In this document: piece by piece, positions 21,219 through 31,446 of the stretch
How the letters are laid out: each line of letters opens with the position of its first letter
How positions within the stretch are numbered: position 1 is the first letter of the stretch
From: Pseudomonadota bacterium
Lineage (GTDB): Bacteria; Campylobacterota; Campylobacteria; Campylobacterales; Sulfurospirillaceae
Direction of reading: 5' to 3'
Assembly (NCBI GenBank): GCA_017860615.1
Contig: JAGDMU010000005.1
Location: 62,001 to 126,000 of the forward strand
DNA: 64,000 nucleotides
Translations under genes and position numbers: made by a program
The notes under the pieces: generated by a model
The model's input: only the letters and a program-made list of their open reading frames with translations
Databases searched by the model: none
Told to the model about the DNA's origin: nothing

Positions 21219-22346
21219 TTAGCGGTTTTTTTTCAACAAAAATTCCCGTCCAACTTTAACTCTTGGAGTGCTTCCATAAGCGATGATGTCGGCAGTAGCA
21301 TTGGTTTCACTCCAACGATCTGGAAGGAATGAGCCTGTACCGATGATGTCGATAGGAGCTTTTGCCCATGCCATCGAACGGCACTTTTGCGGTGTAAAAC
21401 CCGAAGATGCGATGATGCGCACTTTTGAAAAACCTGCATTATCGAGGTTTTCTCGCATACTCCAAATAGCTGCGGCAGAAACGCCTGTGCCAATAAGATC
21501 GTGCAGTTCCGCTTCGGTACGGTAGTCACGCACAGCGTCAGGTGCATGGCGACCTAAAACATCATAGCTTTTTTGGGTGTCAAGTCCCTCTAAAAAACGT
21601 CCACCGTGGGTGTCGAGGCGTACGGCTATTTTTCCCTCTTGCGCTAAAGTAGCAAAAGCGTTGCACACTTCTAGGGTATCGGTGATTTCACGTCCGAAAT
21701 AGTCTGCTAAGATGGGGATATTTTCTTTTGGGAAACATTCATGGAACATCTGAGCAGCTTTAAGTGTCGAGCCTGCATAGCCGATGAGCGCATGAGGAAC
21801 CGTACCCAGACCTTTTTCTCGTCCAAAAAAATGCGCCGTTGCATCGGTCGCATTACCTATGAAACCGACCGCTCCCAGTTTACTTTGCGCAACTTTTGAG
21901 CCGACCGATGCGCCATACGCCATCATCTCAGCCATTTCTGTTCCTGCGCAATGGCGTGCGTCCATCGCTAAAAAAGCGACGTGGGGAAGTATTTGGCACA
22001 TCTCATACGCGTTGTAAGCGGCGACACACGCTGAACCTAACTTTTGTAAAATGAGTGTTTCAAGCTCCGCCAGAAAAGCAAAAGAACCGCTGAGATAAAA
22101 CAGAGGCTCCCCAGCCCCTACCCATTCGCCCTCTTCGTGCAGCACTTCGATGGTAACGCTCATGCCATGCTTTTGTGCTTGTGCTTGAGCCCATTCGGTA
22201 GCTAGGCGTGTTGCAGAAAGGACAGGACGGCGTAAAAAGAAAGCATACGTGACTTCGGTATCACCAAAATGTTCGATGATCGCTTTGGTATTGGAAAAAT
22301 ATTTATCTGTCCATGCAGATACATCAGGTTCATTACTGTTTTGCAT
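21219..22346 (-). CDS. Nicotinate phosphoribosyltransferase-family protein
   Basis: The 375-residue cytosolic protein has the type II phosphoribosyltransferase barrel pattern: DARHCAGTEMAEMMAYGASV, FIGNATDATAHFFGREKGLG, HALIGYAGSTLKA, VRLDTHGGRFLEGLD and SSGFTPQKCRSM, ending in IDIIGTGSFLPD. It probably converts nicotinate and PRPP to nicotinate mononucleotide in NAD salvage. It is somewhat short compared with E. coli PncB (about 400) and matches the archaeal/short bacterial form. Start supported by GGAGCT upstream. It diverges from the ferredoxin gene. Confidence 0.85.
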   Translation of the reverse strand: MQNSNEPDVSAWTDKYFSNTKAIIEHFGDTEVTYAFFLRRPVLSATRLATEWAQAQAQKHGMSVTIEVLHEEGEWVGAGEPLFYLSGSFAFLAELETLILQKLGSACVAAYNAYEMCQILPHVAFLAMDARHCAGTEMAEMMAYGASVGSKVAQSKLGAVGFIGNATDATAHFFGREKGLGTVPHALIGYAGSTLKAAQMFHECFPKENIPILADYFGREITDTLEVCNAFATLAQEGKIAVRLDTHGGRFLEGLDTQKSYDVLGRHAPDAVRDYRTEAELHDLIGTGVSAAAIWSMRENLDNAGFSKVRIIASSGFTPQKCRSMAWAKAPIDIIGTGSFLPDRWSETNATADIIAYGSTPRVKVGREFLLKKNR

Positions 22347-22843: not shown

Positions 22844-25831
22844 TTAAAAGATCGGGCACTCTTTACCATAGCAATACTGGTTAAATTTCTTCTGATCGCA
22901 TTTTGTTTCCATCTCCGCTAAAAGTTTGACATTTAAAAACGTCTCAGACAATGATGAAGCGATGTTGAGCGCTGTCCACACCTCTCTATGACAACAACGA
23001 GCTGCTTCATACTCCGCGATTTTTCCAAGCACTGCATACGTGACTTTTTGCGCTTGGCTTCGTGCTTTTTTTGCCACAGGTGAAGACTCTAACACAATGG
23101 CAAAACCAATGCCCACACCACTGGCTGCTCCACAAATGCCTAAAAATCCACATGATCCACCCATCACACTAGAACCTCTTGAAAGCGCTGTTTTCAGAGC
23201 GCTTTCGCTGACTTTGCCACCACTGTTTTTATACGCCGTCACAATGATAGCAGGCACCATCACATGGTGTTCTGGTCCGTGTTTGGGGATGCTAGGATGC
23301 TCTCGGATCTGCTGAAATAGTTTAAGCATATCGCGCTCTTTAGATGTTTTACAGATATGCTCTATCACCACTAACGCCTCTTTAGCATGGCACGCATCGC
23401 ACACATAATGTCCCGCTTTGCATGTCACACTTTGGTGGCTCACACTGCCACAGTAGTAGCATGTAGCTTCTTGCAATGTCGCCTCATACACAAGCTCCGA
23501 TGTGCACACCATACAGTTATGGCTCTGTTTTGGTGGTGTTAAACCAAACGAAATTTTCACCGTTGGTTTGGGACTCAGGAAAAGGCTCGGTTTTGCCTCA
23601 GGAGGTGTCGCACAACAACAGCTCTGCCCCTCTTGGTTACGCACATCTCCTTTGGCATCCAGTATAAACAGCTCGCTTTCCAACCGTTTGGCTAAAGCCT
23701 CATCAATGCGTGTTTTAATGCCCTTAAAAAGTGTGATACCATTTTCAAAGGTAAGGCTTTCGGCAATTCCTTTGAAGATCACGTCAACCTGTTTTTGCGC
23801 ATTTGGCTTGTGCGCCTCAAACGTGAGCGAGTAAAAGGTGTGCCCCTGCACTTCACGGTAAAAAAAACGTTTAATAAGCGAAATATTTTCAAACCCACTC
23901 TCACGAAGAAGCCCTAAAAGATGGGCTTGCGTAAGCGCTCCACCGATGCACTCACCGCTTAGTTTCGCGTCATTGCGAATGATGGCACTCGCCTCTTCAT
24001 CGCAGATGACATCAGAAACCACAAGCCTTCCACCTTTTTTTAAGACTCGAAAGATTTCTGCAAACAGCTTGCGTTTGTGACTGGAAAGGTTCAGCACGCA
24101 GTTGGAGGTGATGACATCAAAACGCTCATCTTCCTCTGGCAATGCTTCAAGATAGCCTTTTTTAAAGTTTAGATTATTATATCCTAGGCTTTGTGCCACT
24201 TCTTCCGTGCCACTTCGGGCAATTTTCAGCATGGAATCCAACATATCGACTCCGACAACACGCCCACTTTTACCTACCAGTTTAGAGGCGATGAAACACT
24301 CAATGCCTCTGCCAGAACCTAAGTCTAACATCGACTCGCCCTGCTTTAGCTTCGCATCTAAGATGGGACTGCCACAGCCATACCCACGGAATCGCAAATG
24401 CACAGGAATATGCGAAAGGTACTGCTCTTCGTAGCACGCAGGATTGAGGATGCTTTCTTTGTCCGCCAATGCCGCGTCATGGTAAAAAGCTTTTACCAAT
24501 CGCAACGATTCGCTCTCGCCTGGAGCAAGCAGACAATTCGCATGGGTATGTGCCACACCCTCATTTGCCCCACAACTCTGTAAAATGTCGCCCATTTCTA
24601 GGCATAAAGCAGGTTTTTCAAGTCTATCGTAACGCTTTGCTTCTTGACAAATCAGCCATAACGCAAGTTTCTCTAAAAGTGGCTCATACAGGTCATTGCC
24701 CATAAAGGTTTTGGCATGAGCAAAGCTATGGTCTAAGTCGCCACCTCCAAGTAAAAAACGAAGAGGCGAAGTCAGTGACGTAATGGACTGTGAAGCAATT
24801 GCTTTAGCCACCTTACTCCTCAGTGCTTCAGTAATGCTTTTTCCTTCCATTAAAAGCGCACTCTCCCCAACCATCGCGGCACTGGGGTAAAAATGCCCAT
24901 CGTACCCTAACGCAATGGAACTGCGTCCCGAGCTAGAGCCATCGTGTACCGTGCCTTTCGGGGCGAAGATTTGTGTTTTGAGCGCTTCAAAATTGTCGAT
25001 GACTAAGCCTAATTTTTGCGCTTTTTGATACGCGTTGATGAGGGTTTTAAAGAGAACATCGTGCGCGATAAAGCCCTCATTTTCACCACGTCCGCGCGAA
25101 AAATACCACAAGCAATGCAAATGCCCCGCTTTAAGCTCACTTGATAATGCTACAATTTCTTCTAAACTCTGAATATTTAAAGGATGCAAACAAACGGAAA
25201 GAGAGAACGAATAACCCGCTTTTTGAAGCCAAGCAATGTTTCGCTCTAACTTCTCAAAACTCCCCTCACCTCGAATCGCATCATGCTCATAAGGAAGTCC
25301 ATCAAGACTGATTTGAAAGTGCAGTCGCGATGTGGGAAATGCTTGTTGGCTAAAGACTTTTTCAAGCAACATGCCATTGCTCAAGATGACCACTTCGGTA
25401 TCGCTCAGTGCTAAAATCATCTGGGTTAAAGCAAGTAGATCAGGATGCACCAACGGTTCACCACCACTGATGATGAAAAGACGACACCCCAGCGTGTACG
25501 CCTCGTTTACATGTACAATTATTTCTTCCAAACTCAGCATATCTTTCTCTGTGGGTGCAGAGCTAAAAAGGCAGTGTGAACAGGTAAGATTGCAACGATT
25601 GGTCAGGTGTATCCAAAACTCTTGGAGTGTTGTTTGAGAGGGTTTTTTTGGTACATACACTAAAGGATTGGGTGCAGAGATGCGGTGTTGTAACTGCTGA
25701 TATCCCACTGTATTTTCACCATTTTGCAACAACTCATCCGCACTCGCATTGGGCACAAACCAGTCCGCACTGTGACGATGCACGTAAATAGAGCATCCCT
25801 CAAAAACCATTCTTTGCCAGTTATTTTTCAT
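22844..25831 (-). CDS. Three-part fusion: radical SAM + ArsM-like methyltransferase + DUF5714-like domain
   Basis: The 995-residue protein has three regions. Residues 70-350 are a radical SAM domain with the cluster motif CNLTCSHC (Cys80, 84, 87), GGEP at 123-126 and a SPASM-like tail with more cysteines (410, 420, 433). Residues 460-680 are a SAM methyltransferase with the SAM motif LDLGSGRG (502-509) and the three arsenite-binding cysteines of ArsM in their usual settings: GYGCGSPI (486), TSNCVLNL (578) and SGECIGGAL (628). A CCC triplet follows at 738-740. Residues 770-993 are cysteine rich, with paired zinc-ribbon-like motifs (CMVC, CYYC, CDAC), GGSCGFLGICGAASG and RCCHRE, matching what I know of DUF5714. 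It overlaps the TVP38 gene upstream by 11 bases and ends the operon. It probably methylates and further modifies a metalloid such as arsenic; the exact reaction is inferred. Confidence 0.8.
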   Translation of the reverse strand: MKNNWQRMVFEGCSIYVHRHSADWFVPNASADELLQNGENTVGYQQLQHRISAPNPLVYVPKKPSQTTLQEFWIHLTNRCNLTCSHCLFSSAPTEKDMLSLEEIIVHVNEAYTLGCRLFIISGGEPLVHPDLLALTQMILALSDTEVVILSNGMLLEKVFSQQAFPTSRLHFQISLDGLPYEHDAIRGEGSFEKLERNIAWLQKAGYSFSLSVCLHPLNIQSLEEIVALSSELKAGHLHCLWYFSRGRGENEGFIAHDVLFKTLINAYQKAQKLGLVIDNFEALKTQIFAPKGTVHDGSSSGRSSIALGYDGHFYPSAAMVGESALLMEGKSITEALRSKVAKAIASQSITSLTSPLRFLLGGGDLDHSFAHAKTFMGNDLYEPLLEKLALWLICQEAKRYDRLEKPALCLEMGDILQSCGANEGVAHTHANCLLAPGESESLRLVKAFYHDAALADKESILNPACYEEQYLSHIPVHLRFRGYGCGSPILDAKLKQGESMLDLGSGRGIECFIASKLVGKSGRVVGVDMLDSMLKIARSGTEEVAQSLGYNNLNFKKGYLEALPEEDERFDVITSNCVLNLSSHKRKLFAEIFRVLKKGGRLVVSDVICDEEASAIIRNDAKLSGECIGGALTQAHLLGLLRESGFENISLIKRFFYREVQGHTFYSLTFEAHKPNAQKQVDVIFKGIAESLTFENGITLFKGIKTRIDEALAKRLESELFILDAKGDVRNQEGQSCCCATPPEAKPSLFLSPKPTVKISFGLTPPKQSHNCMVCTSELVYEATLQEATCYYCGSVSHQSVTCKAGHYVCDACHAKEALVVIEHICKTSKERDMLKLFQQIREHPSIPKHGPEHHVMVPAIIVTAYKNSGGKVSESALKTALSRGSSVMGGSCGFLGICGAASGVGIGFAIVLESSPVAKKARSQAQKVTYAVLGKIAEYEAARCCHREVWTALNIASSLSETFLNVKLLAEMETKCDQKKFNQYCYGKECPIF

Positions 25832-26429
25832 ACGCTTCTAACCTCTTCTTGACACGTTGTTTTAAAACCATCGACACCACCACAAGTACTATCAATAACC
25901 CAACTGAGATGTAAAACTCCCTACTTCCAAAACTCAGCGACTGCGCACCTATGTTGGCATATACCAAAACACCTGGAAACATGCCCAAAAGCGTTGCGAA
26001 GAAAAAATCACGGTAGCGAATCGTTGAAAATCCTGCGCTGTAACTGATGATATTAAAAGGAACGAGTGGCACAAGACGAAGAAGTAAAATCATCACAAAA
26101 CCATGCTTTTTGACACGAGTTTGAAAGTTAATCAGTTTTTCATGCGCCAATTTTTCACGCATTTTGTTCCCATAAAGTCGTGCAAGGTAAAATGACAACG
26201 TACCGCCACACAGTGCGCCGAAAACAATGTAAAGACTTCCCCACGCAAAGCCAAAAATAAGCCCACCTGCAAGGGCTAAAATGCCATCAGGAAAAAAAAT
26301 AAGTGGTGCCAATGTGAAAAGAAGTATGAAGATAAGCGGTGCGTAGATGCCAAAGCTAAGCACAAAGGTCTTGATCGATTCGACGTGTGAAAAGGAGAGA
26401 ATACCATTTTTATAAAAAACAAACATCAA
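25821..26429 (-). CDS. TVP38/TMEM64 (DedA-like) membrane protein A
   Basis: The protein has five to six hydrophobic stretches with the SNARE-associated/TVP38 core: PLIFFPDGILALAGGLIFG, FGALCGGTLSFYLARLYG, LLLRLVPLVPFNIISYSAG and LGMFPGVLVYANIGA. Family members are membrane proteins linked to lipid scrambling or transport. The coordinates start at a TTG (26429) followed by ATG (26426), but neither has a ribosome binding site and the first membrane helix would be cut. The frame is open upstream to an ATA codon at 26463-26465 with AAGGA six bases before it, which would give an N-terminus of KKVILFLAFGLLMFVF type; see findings. It overlaps the radical SAM fusion by 11 bases. Confidence 0.75.
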   Translation of the reverse strand: MMFVFYKNGILSFSHVESIKTFVLSFGIYAPLIFILLFTLAPLIFFPDGILALAGGLIFGFAWGSLYIVFGALCGGTLSFYLARLYGNKMREKLAHEKLINFQTRVKKHGFVMILLLRLVPLVPFNIISYSAGFSTIRYRDFFFATLLGMFPGVLVYANIGAQSLSFGSREFYISVGLLIVLVVVSMVLKQRVKKRLEAYEK

Positions 26430-26461: not shown

Positions 26462-27565
26462 TTATGCGTTATCCTTTAAGGCGCTGATCATCTGACGTGA
26501 GCTAAAACGGTTGTACCATTTTTTAAGTGTGCCCTGCTCTTCTTGTTTCATCTCAAATGCAGGGTTAAAAATGAGATCAAGCAGATGCACGCCATTTTTG
26601 CCCCCTTTGCTCATGGACTCAGCGCAACTTTGGCAGTAACTCACGATGCTTTCACATTCCGTTTGGTGGGCGCGTGTGCGCATCTGTTCATGTGCCAATG
26701 CCGCATGGGTAGACTCCAACATGCCGCCACTACCACAACACAAGGTTTTTTCACGGTTATTTTTAAACTCTTCATAGGGCAGTTGTAAAACGTCTAAAAG
26801 CGCTCGAACATCATCGTGTATTTTTGTTTCATAACGTGTCGGGCATGGGTCATGCAGTGCCATCATAGGAGTGTTTTTATGACGCTCTTTTGCACTAACA
26901 GGTAGTCCAATCTCTTTTAAGAGTGAATAGAGTGAAATGATTTTGATATGTGGCGCATAGGTTTTAAGACTCATAAAACAGTTCTCACACGCCGTTACAA
27001 CGGTAGTTGCGCCCATACTTGCCAAGTCTGTTTCAAGCTGTGAGTGGTATGTGTTAAACTGTTTCATGTCACCCATCATACGCGTAGGGGTACCACAGCA
27101 CTGCTGAATAATGCCAATACCTGAGCATTTGGTCTGTAAATAATTAAATACCGTATGAACAAGACTCGGAGAGTACGAACTAAGTGCACATCCTGGCATA
27201 AATGCCATGTGGGTGTACTCTCCTTTGGTAAACTTTTTTGTAGTAGAAAAAAGTTTTGAAAAACTACTTTTTTGGTGAAAGATTACGCCACCATACCCAT
27301 ACTTTTTCAACACTTTTTTATCTTCCGCATAACTCTTTTTAGAAGCGGTAAACACTCCTCCAAAATCAATATCTTTAGGACACATATGCACACATAACCC
27401 GCAATTTGCACACGCAAACGCCATCTGCGAACTTGGAAGTTCTGTTGTAAATTTTGTAAGCAATTTTTTGGGTGAAATGGTAAAACTGTAGAGCATCGGA
27501 CAGCCCTTCATACAGCTCCTACAATCCAAACACTCACGCTCATACGCTTTGATCTTAGCGTCCAC
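26462..27565 (-). CDS. Iron-sulfur protein with two [4Fe-4S] motifs and CCG domains (GlpC/HdrD-like)
   Basis: The 367-residue cytosolic protein has N-terminal ferredoxin motifs CLDCRSCMKGCP (about 14-25) and CANCGLCVHMCP (about 51-62), then two CCG-type domains: FMPGCALSS with CCGTPTRMMG and CENCF, and HDPCPTRYET with CCGSGGML and CQSC. This is the build of GlpC, LldE and HdrD-type subunits that carry electrons or act on disulfides and quinones. The start is a GTG at 27565 overlapping the TVP38-B gene by 11 bases, and the ribosome binding site is weak. It is sandwiched between two TVP38 genes, so it may act at the membrane with them. The partner and substrate are unknown. Confidence 0.78.
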   Translation of the reverse strand: MDAKIKAYERECLDCRSCMKGCPMLYSFTISPKKLLTKFTTELPSSQMAFACANCGLCVHMCPKDIDFGGVFTASKKSYAEDKKVLKKYGYGGVIFHQKSSFSKLFSTTKKFTKGEYTHMAFMPGCALSSYSPSLVHTVFNYLQTKCSGIGIIQQCCGTPTRMMGDMKQFNTYHSQLETDLASMGATTVVTACENCFMSLKTYAPHIKIISLYSLLKEIGLPVSAKERHKNTPMMALHDPCPTRYETKIHDDVRALLDVLQLPYEEFKNNREKTLCCGSGGMLESTHAALAHEQMRTRAHQTECESIVSYCQSCAESMSKGGKNGVHLLDLIFNPAFEMKQEEQGTLKKWYNRFSSRQMISALKDNA

Positions 27566-28226
27566 GATACACCCGCTTGATAAGATAGATCAAAATAGAA
27601 ACAGAAAAGAGAATCAAAAGCCCGTAAACAATGGTCTTTGCCCCACCTGTGAGCATCTCTCCTGCATAGGAGTACACAAGCGTTGCAGGCAGTTGTCCCA
27701 CACCTGTAGCCAATAAAAATGAGCGAAGTTTCATCGACGTGAGTCCTGCAGCATAACTCACCACATCAAACGAGATAAACGGAAGCAGCCTTGCGATGAG
27801 GATCGCATAAACGCCATGCCTTTCAAAAAAGGCATCAACACTCTCTAACGCCATTTTACTGGTCAGCTTTTCCACCACATCACGCCCCAAAAATTTGGCG
27901 ATGTAAAAACACAACAATGCCCCAACCATGGCACTTACCCAAGAAAGAGCAGCTCCATACATCCAACCAAACAGTGCGGCATTGGCAAAGGTGATGAGAA
28001 ACGCTGGCAAAGGTGCGAGTATGGCTTGAAAGACCATCAGCAAAAACGAAATGAGAGGTGCGAGTATACCAAACGAGAGGATGTACTCTTTGATTTTATC
28101 AATGTCCAAACTTTGAAACAGCGCCACTAATTCAAAAAAATAGTTTCTGCTTTGAGGACAGATGAAAAAGAGGGTAAGCGCGACACTACTTAAAAGCAGT
28201 ATCGCGATTTTAGAAGGTTTGAGCAT
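27555..28226 (-). CDS. TVP38/TMEM64 (DedA-like) membrane protein B
   Basis: The 223-residue protein has an N-terminal helix (IAILLLSSVALTLFFIC), then the TVP38 core: APLPAFLITFANAALFGWMY, GALLCFYIAKFLGRDVVEKL, LIARLLPFISFDVVSYAAG and GVGQLPATLVYSYAGEM. It is paralogous to protein A on the other side of the iron-sulfur gene. The start overlaps the stop of the rhodanese lipoprotein by one base (TAATG). Two TVP38 proteins in one operon suggest a heteromeric membrane unit or transport of product or lipid. Confidence 0.85.
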   Translation of the reverse strand: MLKPSKIAILLLSSVALTLFFICPQSRNYFFELVALFQSLDIDKIKEYILSFGILAPLISFLLMVFQAILAPLPAFLITFANAALFGWMYGAALSWVSAMVGALLCFYIAKFLGRDVVEKLTSKMALESVDAFFERHGVYAILIARLLPFISFDVVSYAAGLTSMKLRSFLLATGVGQLPATLVYSYAGEMLTGGAKTIVYGLLILFSVSILIYLIKRVYRGR

Positions 28227-29050: not shown

Positions 29051-30145
29051 GTGAAAACTGAACATGAGATTCTACAATATATCGATAATACACCTGCTTT
29101 AAAAGCTTTTTTCCAAAGCCCTCCTTTGCGTGTAGAAGAGATTGGAGATGGTAACTTAAATTTTATCTTTCGCATTCGTGACGAAAGTGGAGCTTCACTC
29201 ATTCTCAAATACGCAGCGCCCTATCTTAGGCTATTGGGTGAAGATTTTCCTCTCCCGCAAAATCGTATTTGCGTCGAGATGCACACACTAACCTATTTTA
29301 AAAGCATTGCGCCTGCATTCATCCCTCGTATGTATCACCTCGATGAAGAGGCGTTTTGTTTTACCATGGAAGATCTAGCAGGTTATCAGCTCTTACAAAC
29401 GGCTCAATTCGATCAGTTTATCGCCCCCTCCGTGTACTCCAAACTAGGCTCGTTTTTAGCAACCCTTTATACCAAAGCACCTCCACCAAAGCATGAAGTA
29501 CATTACTATGAAAACGCAACCCTAAAACGCATCAGTGAAGAGTATATTTTTATCTTTCCATACATTGAAAATCACCCTGCTCTGATACTTCCTTCCCATT
29601 TTACGCCTTCGCCTAAAAGTCCTCTGTTTATGCAGAACATTGAACAGCTCTTACATCTTTTTCAAACGGAAAAAGAGTGTTTGATTCACGGCGATTTCCA
29701 CACAGGTTCGGTGATGATCAAGCATGAAAGTCTTGCCATTATTGATGCCGAATTTTCACTTTTTGCCCCTTTGGGATTTGACATCGGCACACTCTTTGCG
29801 CACATCATTTTTGGTGAGATTTACAACTGCTTTGAGAAAAAACCTGTTCAGTTTCAGCCCATTATTCGTTCCCTTTGGAAAACCTTTGCAAAGAGTATTG
29901 GCAATGTTCCTGAACACATCGTGCAGCAGAGTGTTGGGTTTTGTGGAGCGGAGCTTTCACGCCGTTTGGTAGTCCCTGCTAAAGCCAAACCTCTTGAAGC
30001 TATACGCACGTTGGAAGGAAAAACCAACGCTTATACCGTGTGTGAAAAACTCAGCATTGAAATGGTTGAGCGCTTTTTAGAGATGAAAAGCGTGGAAGAT
30101 TTTATCAGCCTTGTGGAGCGGCATTTATGCGTCAAAACGCGCTGA
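29051..30145 (+). CDS. Methylthioribose-kinase-like (MtnK/APH-fold) small-molecule kinase
   Basis: The 364-residue protein shows the choline/aminoglycoside kinase fold in the version used by 5-methylthioribose kinases: EEIGDGNLNFIFRI, SLILKYAAPYLRLLGEDFPL, catalytic loop CLIHGDFHTGSVMI (about 216-229) and IIDAEFSLFAPLGFDIG. MtnK phosphorylates 5-methylthioribose at C1. The start is a GTG with AAGGA upstream. The gene overlaps the transferase fusion by 19 bases, so the two products likely act in one route. Given an ArsM-like protein next door, a methylated-metalloid ribose is an attractive substrate, but ordinary methylthioribose cannot be excluded from sequence. Confidence 0.78.
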   Translation: MKTEHEILQYIDNTPALKAFFQSPPLRVEEIGDGNLNFIFRIRDESGASLILKYAAPYLRLLGEDFPLPQNRICVEMHTLTYFKSIAPAFIPRMYHLDEEAFCFTMEDLAGYQLLQTAQFDQFIAPSVYSKLGSFLATLYTKAPPPKHEVHYYENATLKRISEEYIFIFPYIENHPALILPSHFTPSPKSPLFMQNIEQLLHLFQTEKECLIHGDFHTGSVMIKHESLAIIDAEFSLFAPLGFDIGTLFAHIIFGEIYNCFEKKPVQFQPIIRSLWKTFAKSIGNVPEHIVQQSVGFCGAELSRRLVVPAKAKPLEAIRTLEGKTNAYTVCEKLSIEMVERFLEMKSVEDFISLVERHLCVKTR

Positions 30146-31446
30146 TTCTTTTTATGAAAGCTCCCGTGCTTGGTCGTGTGAAAACACGCCTTGCGCAAAG
30201 CCTTGGCGAGGAGTCTGCTACCACGCTGTACCGCTTGATGTGCGAACACCTCCTCACGCTGCCACACAACAGCGATGTTATGGTAGCTTATGATGATGAA
30301 GCAAGAGCCTCTTTGCCTCCTTACTTAGAAGGAACACCTCTTTTTTATCAAACGGGTGATGATTTGGGAGCGCGGATGAAAAACGCCTTTGAAACGGTGT
30401 TTGCTCAAGGCTATAAGAGCGCTATCTTGGTGGGTTCTGACATCCCCGAAGTAGATGAGCGCATTTTAGACGAAGCCTTTACCTTACTTGCTCAAAACGA
30501 TGCGATTCTTAGCCAAACACACGATGGTGGGTACTACCTCATCGGCTTTCATCAAAAGACGTTTTGCAAAGCTGCATTTGAGGGCATTGCGTATAGCCAA
30601 AGCGATGTGTATGCCAACACCCTTTTAAAACTCGTACATCTACGTGTAGCGCAAGGTGTTATGCTTCGGGACATTGACACGTTAGACGATTTGCGTACAT
30701 TTTTAAAAACTGCATTTTCAAGCCCTTTGTGTGATTTTGCTAAACACGCTTTAAAGGCACTTCCTAAAATCAGTGTGATTATCCCTGTATACCATGAAGA
30801 TGAAACATTGCTTCTCACCATAACGCATTTAAGGGCTATGGCTTACACCCAATCTTATGAAATTATTGTCGTTGATACCCATGCCATTACCACAGTACAC
30901 CGCTTCACGCTTGAAAATGTGCACCTAGCTTACGCCAAAAAAGGCAGAGCCAATCAGATGAACGAAGGTGCACTTAAAGCGCGCGGTGAAATACTGCTTT
31001 TTTTACACGCCGATACGCGAACACCACAGCACTGGGATAGATACGTAGAAGAAGCATTACAGCATCATACAGCAGGAGCATTTTCACTTGGAATTGATGA
31101 TAAACACCCGGCACTTAGGTTGATCGAAATGATGGCAAATCTTCGCACCTCCATCACCCAACTTCCTTACGGCGACCAAGCCCATTTTTTCAAAACCTCT
31201 TTTTTCAAAAGTCTTGACGGCTACGCAAACATTCCCTTGATGGAAGATGTGGAGATGATGCAACGCCTAAAAAAACGAGGTGAGAAGATCGCTCTTTTAA
31301 AACCTAATGTCTTAACATCTGCTAGAAGATGGCATAAAGAGGGCATCCTTTACACGACGCTTCGCAACCGAGTTTTAAGTTTTCTCTATAGTGTAGGTCT
31401 TTCGCCAGAAAAATTAATCCAATACTATCAAACGCATCGAAACTAA
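30127..31446 (+). CDS. Fusion of TIGR04282-like (DUF2064) and TIGR04283-like glycosyltransferase domains
   Basis: The 439-residue protein joins two enzymes that are usually separate. Residues 1-195 are the DUF2064/CofC-like nucleotidyl- or glycosyltransferase domain (LILFMKAPVLGRVKTRLAQ; VGSDIPEVDER; THDGGYYLIG). Residues 214-439 are a GT2-type domain with the TIGR04283 marks KGRANQMNEGALKARGE, LFLHADTRTP, LPYGDQAHFF, PLMEDVEMM and TSARRW. These families are known as rSAM/selenodomain-associated transferases 1 and 2 and are now linked to arsenosugar biosynthesis. No membrane segments are obvious apart from a weak C-terminal one. It follows the kinase with a 19-base overlap. Confidence 0.85.
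   Translation: MRQNALILFMKAPVLGRVKTRLAQSLGEESATTLYRLMCEHLLTLPHNSDVMVAYDDEARASLPPYLEGTPLFYQTGDDLGARMKNAFETVFAQGYKSAILVGSDIPEVDERILDEAFTLLAQNDAILSQTHDGGYYLIGFHQKTFCKAAFEGIAYSQSDVYANTLLKLVHLRVAQGVMLRDIDTLDDLRTFLKTAFSSPLCDFAKHALKALPKISVIIPVYHEDETLLLTITHLRAMAYTQSYEIIVVDTHAITTVHRFTLENVHLAYAKKGRANQMNEGALKARGEILLFLHADTRTPQHWDRYVEEALQHHTAGAFSLGIDDKHPALRLIEMMANLRTSITQLPYGDQAHFFKTSFFKSLDGYANIPLMEDVEMMQRLKKRGEKIALLKPNVLTSARRWHKEGILYTTLRNRVLSFLYSVGLSPEKLIQYYQTHRN

Follow-up and report, generated by a model that had tools for sequence, protein, structure and literature searches.

Analysis of a 64,000-nucleotide stretch of a Sulfurospirillum-like genome of the Sulfurospirillaceae (contig JAGDMU010000005.1 of assembly GCA_017860615.1; hereafter the window) revealed a gene in which a radical S-adenosylmethionine (SAM) enzyme, an ArsM-type arsenite methyltransferase and a DUF5714 domain are joined in one chain (hereafter the fusion). 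Because this gene occupies the slot that a separate ArsS gene holds in other bacteria, the fusion probably offers another route to arsenic-containing sugars, one unrelated to the first. On balance, we favor the view that it replaces the ArsS and ArsM pair heading an arsenosugar-type pathway, yielding dimethylarsinyl-deoxyadenosine. One published account has ArsS acting together with ArsM at the start of arsenosugar synthesis (PMC8552651), and another describes the adenosylation of arsenic by a radical SAM enzyme (PMC12159101). No account of this fusion or of DUF5714 was found in the literature searched, and earlier mentions may exist elsewhere.

Architecture and conservation of the fusion

The plus-strand frame of 22844-25831 is riddled with stop codons; the coding strand is the minus strand, on which the open reading frame (ORF) runs without an internal stop codon. 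Hidden Markov model (HMM) searches recovered all three domains that the initial annotation had proposed for this 995-residue chain. With a match to PF04055 and a CxxxCxxC motif (CNLTCSHC at residues 80-87, present where the initial annotation had placed it), the N-terminal part belongs to the radical SAM superfamily, and all 16 orthologues retain the cysteines of the motif.

The middle part, from about residue 464 to 660, is a methyltransferase of ArsM type. Methyltransf_31 (Pfam) matched residues 495-644 with 104 bits, and the top NCBIfam match was NF008823, the arsenite methyltransferase family (206.7 bits over residues 457-661, spanning model positions 39-238 of 272), with other ArsM models ranking next. 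The NF008823 score lies under the whole-protein cut-off of 263. The closest solved chains were ArsM structures (E about 1e-36), and in the alignment with 4kw7/4fr0 (E about 6e-37) the three cysteines earlier singled out as arsenite ligands, C486, C578 and C628, fell on the YGCGS, SNCV and GEC motifs. All three are present in 16/16 orthologues, as in an ArsM, and their counterparts in CmArsM are presumably C72, C174 and C224.

At the C-terminus, the match to PF18978 (198 bits against a gathering cut-off of 26.2, covering 172 of 173 positions) identifies a DUF5714 domain, most of whose cysteines and histidines are invariant among the 16 orthologues. Ahead of it, C738 and C740 are constant in all 16 and the cysteine between them occurs in only 7, so the "CCC triplet" of the initial annotation does not hold as a unit. 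Although region 734-994 resembles MbdU (NF045648), a metal-binding family with two selenocysteines, it scored 138 bits against a cut-off of 600 in an ORF free of internal stops and lies outside that family. Structure predictions from shallow three-row alignments gave a mean predicted local distance difference test score (pLDDT) of 33.4 and a predicted template modeling score (pTM) of 0.28 for the full chain, and a mean pLDDT of 42.9 for the DUF5714 core, scores too low for the models to be used.

We searched 397 Campylobacterota genomes alike for DUF5714, TIGR04283 and ArsS. DUF5714 scored above its cut-off in 15, and since 14 of these encode it within a single ORF of 989-1004 residues, the fusion is real and conserved and is not an assembly artefact. 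The exception, genome G017, has ORFs of 726 and 269 residues, split by small linker indels and overlapping stop to start in TAATG. Weak DUF5714 matches beyond the 15 were a decayed tail in G013 and a 20.7-bit match in G295. The fusion genomes fall into four genera, with 12 of the 15 in one genus. Among 23 other genomes of the same genus as the window, a strong fusion match was present in 17 (a few of them split or truncated where a contig ends), a remnant in one (G013) and none in five; in G013 the whole block has been lost, and the broken ends of its outermost genes, glycosyltransferase and fusion, nearly abut. Found at full length in many genomes of this genus and in three other genera, the fusion is conserved far beyond chance. 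No match was found in the E. coli genomes searched and none to the radical SAM extension (residues 235-465) in plasmids, and a search of viral contigs with the alignment gave nine stretches but no relative.

The radical SAM part is distinct from ArsS

The initial annotation had held that the radical SAM part does not look like classical ArsS, and the comparisons supported this. TIGR04167 (ArsS) matched the fusion with 47.6 bits against a cut-off of 300 and only in the radical SAM core, which leaves the protein outside that family, and the ArsS model was absent from the best 25 of the 80 models matching this part. DUF3641 (PF12345), which each of three scanned ArsS proteins (L104, L108 and L110) contains, was not found in residues 2-460 at E 0.1. 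Profile comparison with hhalign scored the radical SAM part at 105 against ArsS, and the score rose to 164 when the profile was of other radical SAM proteins from this phylum. In a tree of the core, built from 6 of the 16 fusions, 10 of the 17 ArsS and 6 other proteins, the fusions grouped with non-ArsS radical SAM proteins at 100/99, apart from ArsS; the joining of one row (L102) to the fusions was flagged as a meeting of long branches. By scores, hhalign and tree, a diverged ArsS is the less likely origin of this part.

The top family matches of the radical SAM part were SPASM-type peptide and cofactor maturases. The Pfam SPASM domain had no match in this part at E 0.1. The motif that we take to be SPASM-type reads GSSSGRSSIALGYDGHFYPSA, with serine at the SPASM cysteine positions, and is cysteine-free in 10 aligned sequences. 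Because of these serines the part would be SPASM-like at most, and the earlier description of it as SPASM-like was not upheld. In the extension of residues 228-460, GGGDLDHS, CGANEGVAHTHANC, is kept across 10 aligned orthologues.

The fusion and ArsS are distributed in a complementary manner

TIGR04283 scored above cut-off in 29 of the 397 genomes, comprising 15 with the fusion (the split G017 included), 14 with ArsS and none with neither. ArsS was present in 17 genomes, and the three beyond these 14 had TIGR04283 at 170-180 bits, close to the cut-off of 182. Fusion and ArsS were never both above cut-off in one genome (0/397). The Fisher value for this complementary distribution was 1e-19, a figure that ignores kinship among genomes of which 12 of the 15 with the fusion share one genus.

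Four of the 17 ArsS genomes (G024, G033, G333 and G359) encode an ArsS-ArsM fusion of 663-705 residues; the joining of ArsM to a radical SAM enzyme has thus apparently happened two or more times. G024 is a genus-mate of the fusion-bearing G028, and G033 of the fusion-bearing G027; with another, ArsS-ArsM species in each of these genera (g2 and g5), the two forms alternate within genera. A tree of the ArsM domain (7 fusion, 4 ArsS-ArsM, 9 annotated or ArsM-like and 1 unassigned row) resolved three separate groups, with a support of 79/77 for the ArsM group and long branches for three rows. These separate groups suggest that the two kinds of radical SAM-ArsM fusion arose independently; possibly, instead, the radical SAM part was swapped in a common ancestor. 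In one ArsS genome (G208), a 629-residue ORF (L106:9604-11493) has a C-terminal ArsS part and about 320 N-terminal residues without assignment, a further type of ArsS fusion.

Gene neighborhood

In the window, the five minus-strand genes run in the order rhodanese, VTT, dicluster protein, VTT and fusion, and most of them overlap. Divergent from these are the genes for the kinase and the glycosyltransferases (Table 1). Glycosyltransferase families TIGR04282 and TIGR04283 both scored above cut-off here, marking an arsenosugar-type cluster.

Table 1. Coordinates of the fusion gene, its parts and its neighbors in the window
Feature	Coordinates	Strand	Basis
Radical SAM / ArsM / DUF5714 fusion, 995 residues	22844..25831	-	ORF, Pfam and NCBIfam scans, orthologues
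Radical SAM core, residues 74-227	25151..25612	-	PF04055, 81 bits; non-ArsS clade
CNLTCSHC, residues 80-87, [4Fe-4S] motif	25571..25594	-	Cysteines kept in 16/16 orthologues
Extension of radical SAM part, residues 228-460	24452..25150	-	No Pfam match; degenerate, at most SPASM-like motif and GGGDLDHS, CGANEGVAHTHANC
ArsM-type methyltransferase, residues 464-735, C486/C578/C628	23627..24442	-	Pfam, NCBIfam, structure alignment
Region 734-994, MbdU-like (CxC, zinc-ribbon-like cysteines, DUF5714)	22850..23632	-	NF045648, 134-138 bits, cut-off 600
DUF5714, residues 822-993 (HGPEHH, C894, C900, C946/C947, C978, C987, C992)	22853..23368	-	PF18978, 198 bits
VTT-domain membrane protein, overlapping start of fusion gene	25821..26429	-	PF09335
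4Fe-4S dicluster / CCG cysteine-rich protein, Hdr-like	26462..27565	-	PF02754, Fer4; NF045663, 242.7 bits over dicluster half
VTT-domain membrane protein	27555..28226	-	PF09335
Rhodanese-domain protein; by eye a possible lipoprotein, with LLIGCGGK at the end of a hydrophobic segment	28226..28765	-	PF00581
Divergent S-methyl-5-thioribose-kinase-like kinase	29051..30145	+	TIGR01767, 231.6 bits, cut-off 275
Fused TIGR04282 and TIGR04283 arsenosugar glycosyltransferases	30127..31446	+	166.6 and 226.9 bits, both above cut-off

Across 16 fusion loci (L050-L064 and L066, the gapped or short L002, L003, L068 and L069 being left out), the rhodanese, VTT, dicluster and S-methyl-5-thioribose (MTR)-kinase-like genes were each present in 15. 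A TIGR04282/TIGR04283 gene lay in the same stretch as the fusion at 14; the two misses were a contig end (L066) and G364, where the kinase and glycosyltransferase are on another contig (L116). Of the 17 ArsS genomes, 11 had their ArsS loci inspected; at these loci a TIGR04283 homologue and a VTT gene were each found in 9, the dicluster gene in 7 and a clear rhodanese in 1. In G024, the series rhodanese, VTT, dicluster and VTT lies one gene from the ArsS-ArsM fusion, the intervening gene encoding a flavin disulfide oxidoreductase. Another ArsS cluster (L110) has TIGR04282 in one chain with an APH-type kinase, so both types of cluster share a set of kinase, TIGR04282 and TIGR04283. Every one of the 15 fusion genomes carries the divergent MTR-kinase-like form, which scores 149-220 bits and so falls short of the TIGR01767 cut-off; otherwise it occurs only in G024, an ArsS genome, and G360; this subfamily tracks the fusion and is a candidate arsino-ribose kinase. 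An MTR kinase above cut-off adjoins arsenosugar genes in G208, G333 and G359.

Several further genes were noted around these clusters. A nicotinate phosphoribosyltransferase-like protein at 21219-22346 (family scores all under cut-off) is often near the fusion and is kept in G013, which lacks the block. The window belongs to contig 21 of its genome, and contig 23 of that genome carries a second TIGR04283 gene (L115:9977-10672). This one stands alone, scores 264 bits and lies two genes away from one that resembles acetoacetyl-CoA reductase. In G024, genes for an ArsN1-like acetyltransferase (below cut-off; L117:6778-7278) and a HAD phosphatase are directly upstream of the kinase-glycosyltransferase pair, and in G333 (L108), on a stretch that also encodes the ArsS-ArsM fusion, the MTR kinase has an MTR-1-P isomerase gene (mtnA) as its neighbor. 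ArsS clusters (L110-L114 and L118) also encode small cysteine-containing proteins, of which the one scanned, in L110, falls slightly short of the cut-off for the C-GCAxxG-C-C family; homology of DUF5714 to this protein was rejected (hhalign probability 0.2).

DUF5714 outside the fusion

Alignment of four fusions with three stand-alone DUF5714 proteins of clostridial or negativicute origin showed HGPEHH, C894, C900, C946, C947, C978, C987 and C992 to be invariant; the zinc-ribbon-like cysteines preceding the domain are absent in Lachnospira eligens. We inspected the loci of stand-alone DUF5714 genes in four of seven plasmid records. On a Paraclostridium plasmid the gene adjoins arsM, with arsR two genes on, and an L. 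eligens plasmid carries arsR, DUF5714 and a low-molecular-weight phosphatase that we read as ArsC-like. No ars gene was present at the Selenomonas plasmid locus, and none was recognized by eye among the ORFs of the unannotated Acetoanaerobium plasmid locus. The initial annotation's suggestion that DUF5714 handles arsenic thus gains modest support from the two of four stand-alone genes that adjoin ars genes. Its statement that these domains are normally separate genes fits the plasmid cases inspected, but within Campylobacterota DUF5714 is fused in 14 of 15 genomes. Searches with DUF5714 returned nothing better than E 0.1 among solved structures and no match in PHROGs.

Proposed pathway and alternative explanations

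Conserved residues suggest that the ArsM domain binds As(III) through C486, C578 and C628 and methylates it. Judging from the genomic slot, which makes an ArsS-type reaction the simplest reading, the N-terminal radical SAM part would generate a 5'-deoxyadenosyl radical and attach it to methylated As(III), and the product would be dimethylarsinyl-5'-deoxyadenosine, the same as with ArsS. Speculatively, the invariant histidines and cysteines of DUF5714 might hold or reduce trivalent arsenic, or pass it from one site to the other. Once adenine has been lost, the MTR-kinase-like enzyme would, by the chemistry of its family, form the 1-phosphate of 5-arsino-ribose, which TIGR04282 (related to nucleotidyltransferases such as CofC) may activate and TIGR04283 may move onto an acceptor. 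MTR kinase phosphorylates 5-substituted ribose at C1, and 5-deoxy-5-dimethylarsinyl-ribose is a close analogue, which would explain the presence of the kinase. The idea proposed at the outset, that a single arsenic atom undergoes both methylation and radical chemistry, is supported by the replacement of ArsS by this gene in arsenosugar-type clusters and by the ArsS-ArsM fusion in sister species.

Several observations weigh against this assignment. The radical SAM part is nearer to enzymes of the MftC/NirJ/Rv1681 type than it is to ArsS, and homology therefore does not reveal which reaction it performs; even the best of its family scores fall far short of the cut-offs, and the fusion lacks DUF3641. 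The clusters also differ, with a strong rhodanese homologue in just 1 of the 11 ArsS genomes inspected and no dicluster protein in 4 of them. No nucleosidase was recognized in the fusion cluster, "arsenosugar" in the family names is NCBI annotation, and two of the four stand-alone DUF5714 genes inspected are not near ars genes. Finally, with 12 of 15 fusion genomes in one genus, the independent events are few (about four genera).

The separate radical SAM clade would also suit an enzyme that forms a different C-As bond, transferring a 3-amino-3-carboxypropyl group as ArsL does, or another alkyl group, so that the product would be a new organoarsenical and no classical arsenosugar. A second radical C-As chemistry is indeed known from ArsL (PMC8552651), but we think this unlikely, as the MTR-kinase-like, TIGR04282 and TIGR04283 genes common to ArsS clusters suggest a 5-substituted ribose. 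Quite unlikely, in our view, is a role with another element or group (selenium, antimony or tellurium), or maturation by the radical SAM part of its own protein or a peptide, with the ArsM part serving detoxification only. The SPASM-type maturases among the best family matches, the similarity of region 734-994 to the selenoprotein family MbdU and the naming of ArsM-type methyltransferases in several selenoprotein families point that way; the three arsenite cysteines intact in every orthologue, the complementary distribution with ArsS and the two stand-alone DUF5714 loci near ars genes point away from it. It is also rather unlikely that the domains are joined for co-expression only, each working as if alone; in that case nothing would be handed over, and DUF5714 would be an appendage that regulates or binds Zn. 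The detached DUF5714 ORF of G017 fits such a loose association, but that split may be a sequencing error, and elsewhere DUF5714 stays attached (14/15 genomes) with nearly all of its cysteines and histidines invariant.

Beyond the replacement of ArsS and ArsM, we propose tentatively, at a little under even weight, that the fusion may represent an evolutionarily independent second family of radical SAM enzymes that adenosylate arsenic. With ArsM and DUF5714, the latter as a new domain for handling metalloids, attached to it, such an enzyme would carry out every step from arsenite to an adenosylated arsenical within a single chain, and no toxic trivalent intermediate would be set free. Radical enzymes that form C-As bonds are few, ArsS and ArsL being those named in the literature consulted. 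If the proposal is correct, the fusion would be a third, unrelated enzyme of this kind, found in Campylobacterota, arsenosugar-type chemistry would have been invented more than once, and DUF5714 would gain its first function. It would also offer a single-chain system for studying the hand-over of trivalent arsenic between active sites and open DUF5714 and the MTR-kinase, TIGR04282 and TIGR04283 steps to direct test.

Comparison with known systems

Among the closest known systems is the ArsS (TIGR04167) and ArsM pathway, which shares with the fusion the pairing of radical SAM enzyme and ArsM, fused in the same order in 4 of 17 ArsS genomes, and the nearby VTT pair, dicluster protein, TIGR04282, TIGR04283 and sugar kinase. 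The fusion differs in a radical SAM part of another lineage, in lacking DUF3641 and in carrying DUF5714. The ArsS-ArsM fusions likewise have an N-terminal radical SAM part and a C-terminal ArsM part with the same three cysteine motifs, but theirs is a classical ArsS, without DUF5714, and their ArsM parts form their own tree group. In arsinothricin synthesis, ArsL and ArsM also pair a radical SAM enzyme and a methyltransferase on one arsenic atom (PMC8552651); unlike the fusion, they are separate genes, and the group transferred is 3-amino-3-carboxypropyl. The arsinothricin ArsM models scored 173 and 76 bits against the fusion, below their cut-offs. Finally, the ArsM-AhpD and ArsM-DUF2284 selenoproteins of NCBIfam resemble the fusion in joining ArsM to a C-terminal redox or metal-binding module, and MbdU in its similarity to region 734-994 (138 bits), but all three are named selenoproteins without a radical SAM part, and their scores here are far under cut-off.

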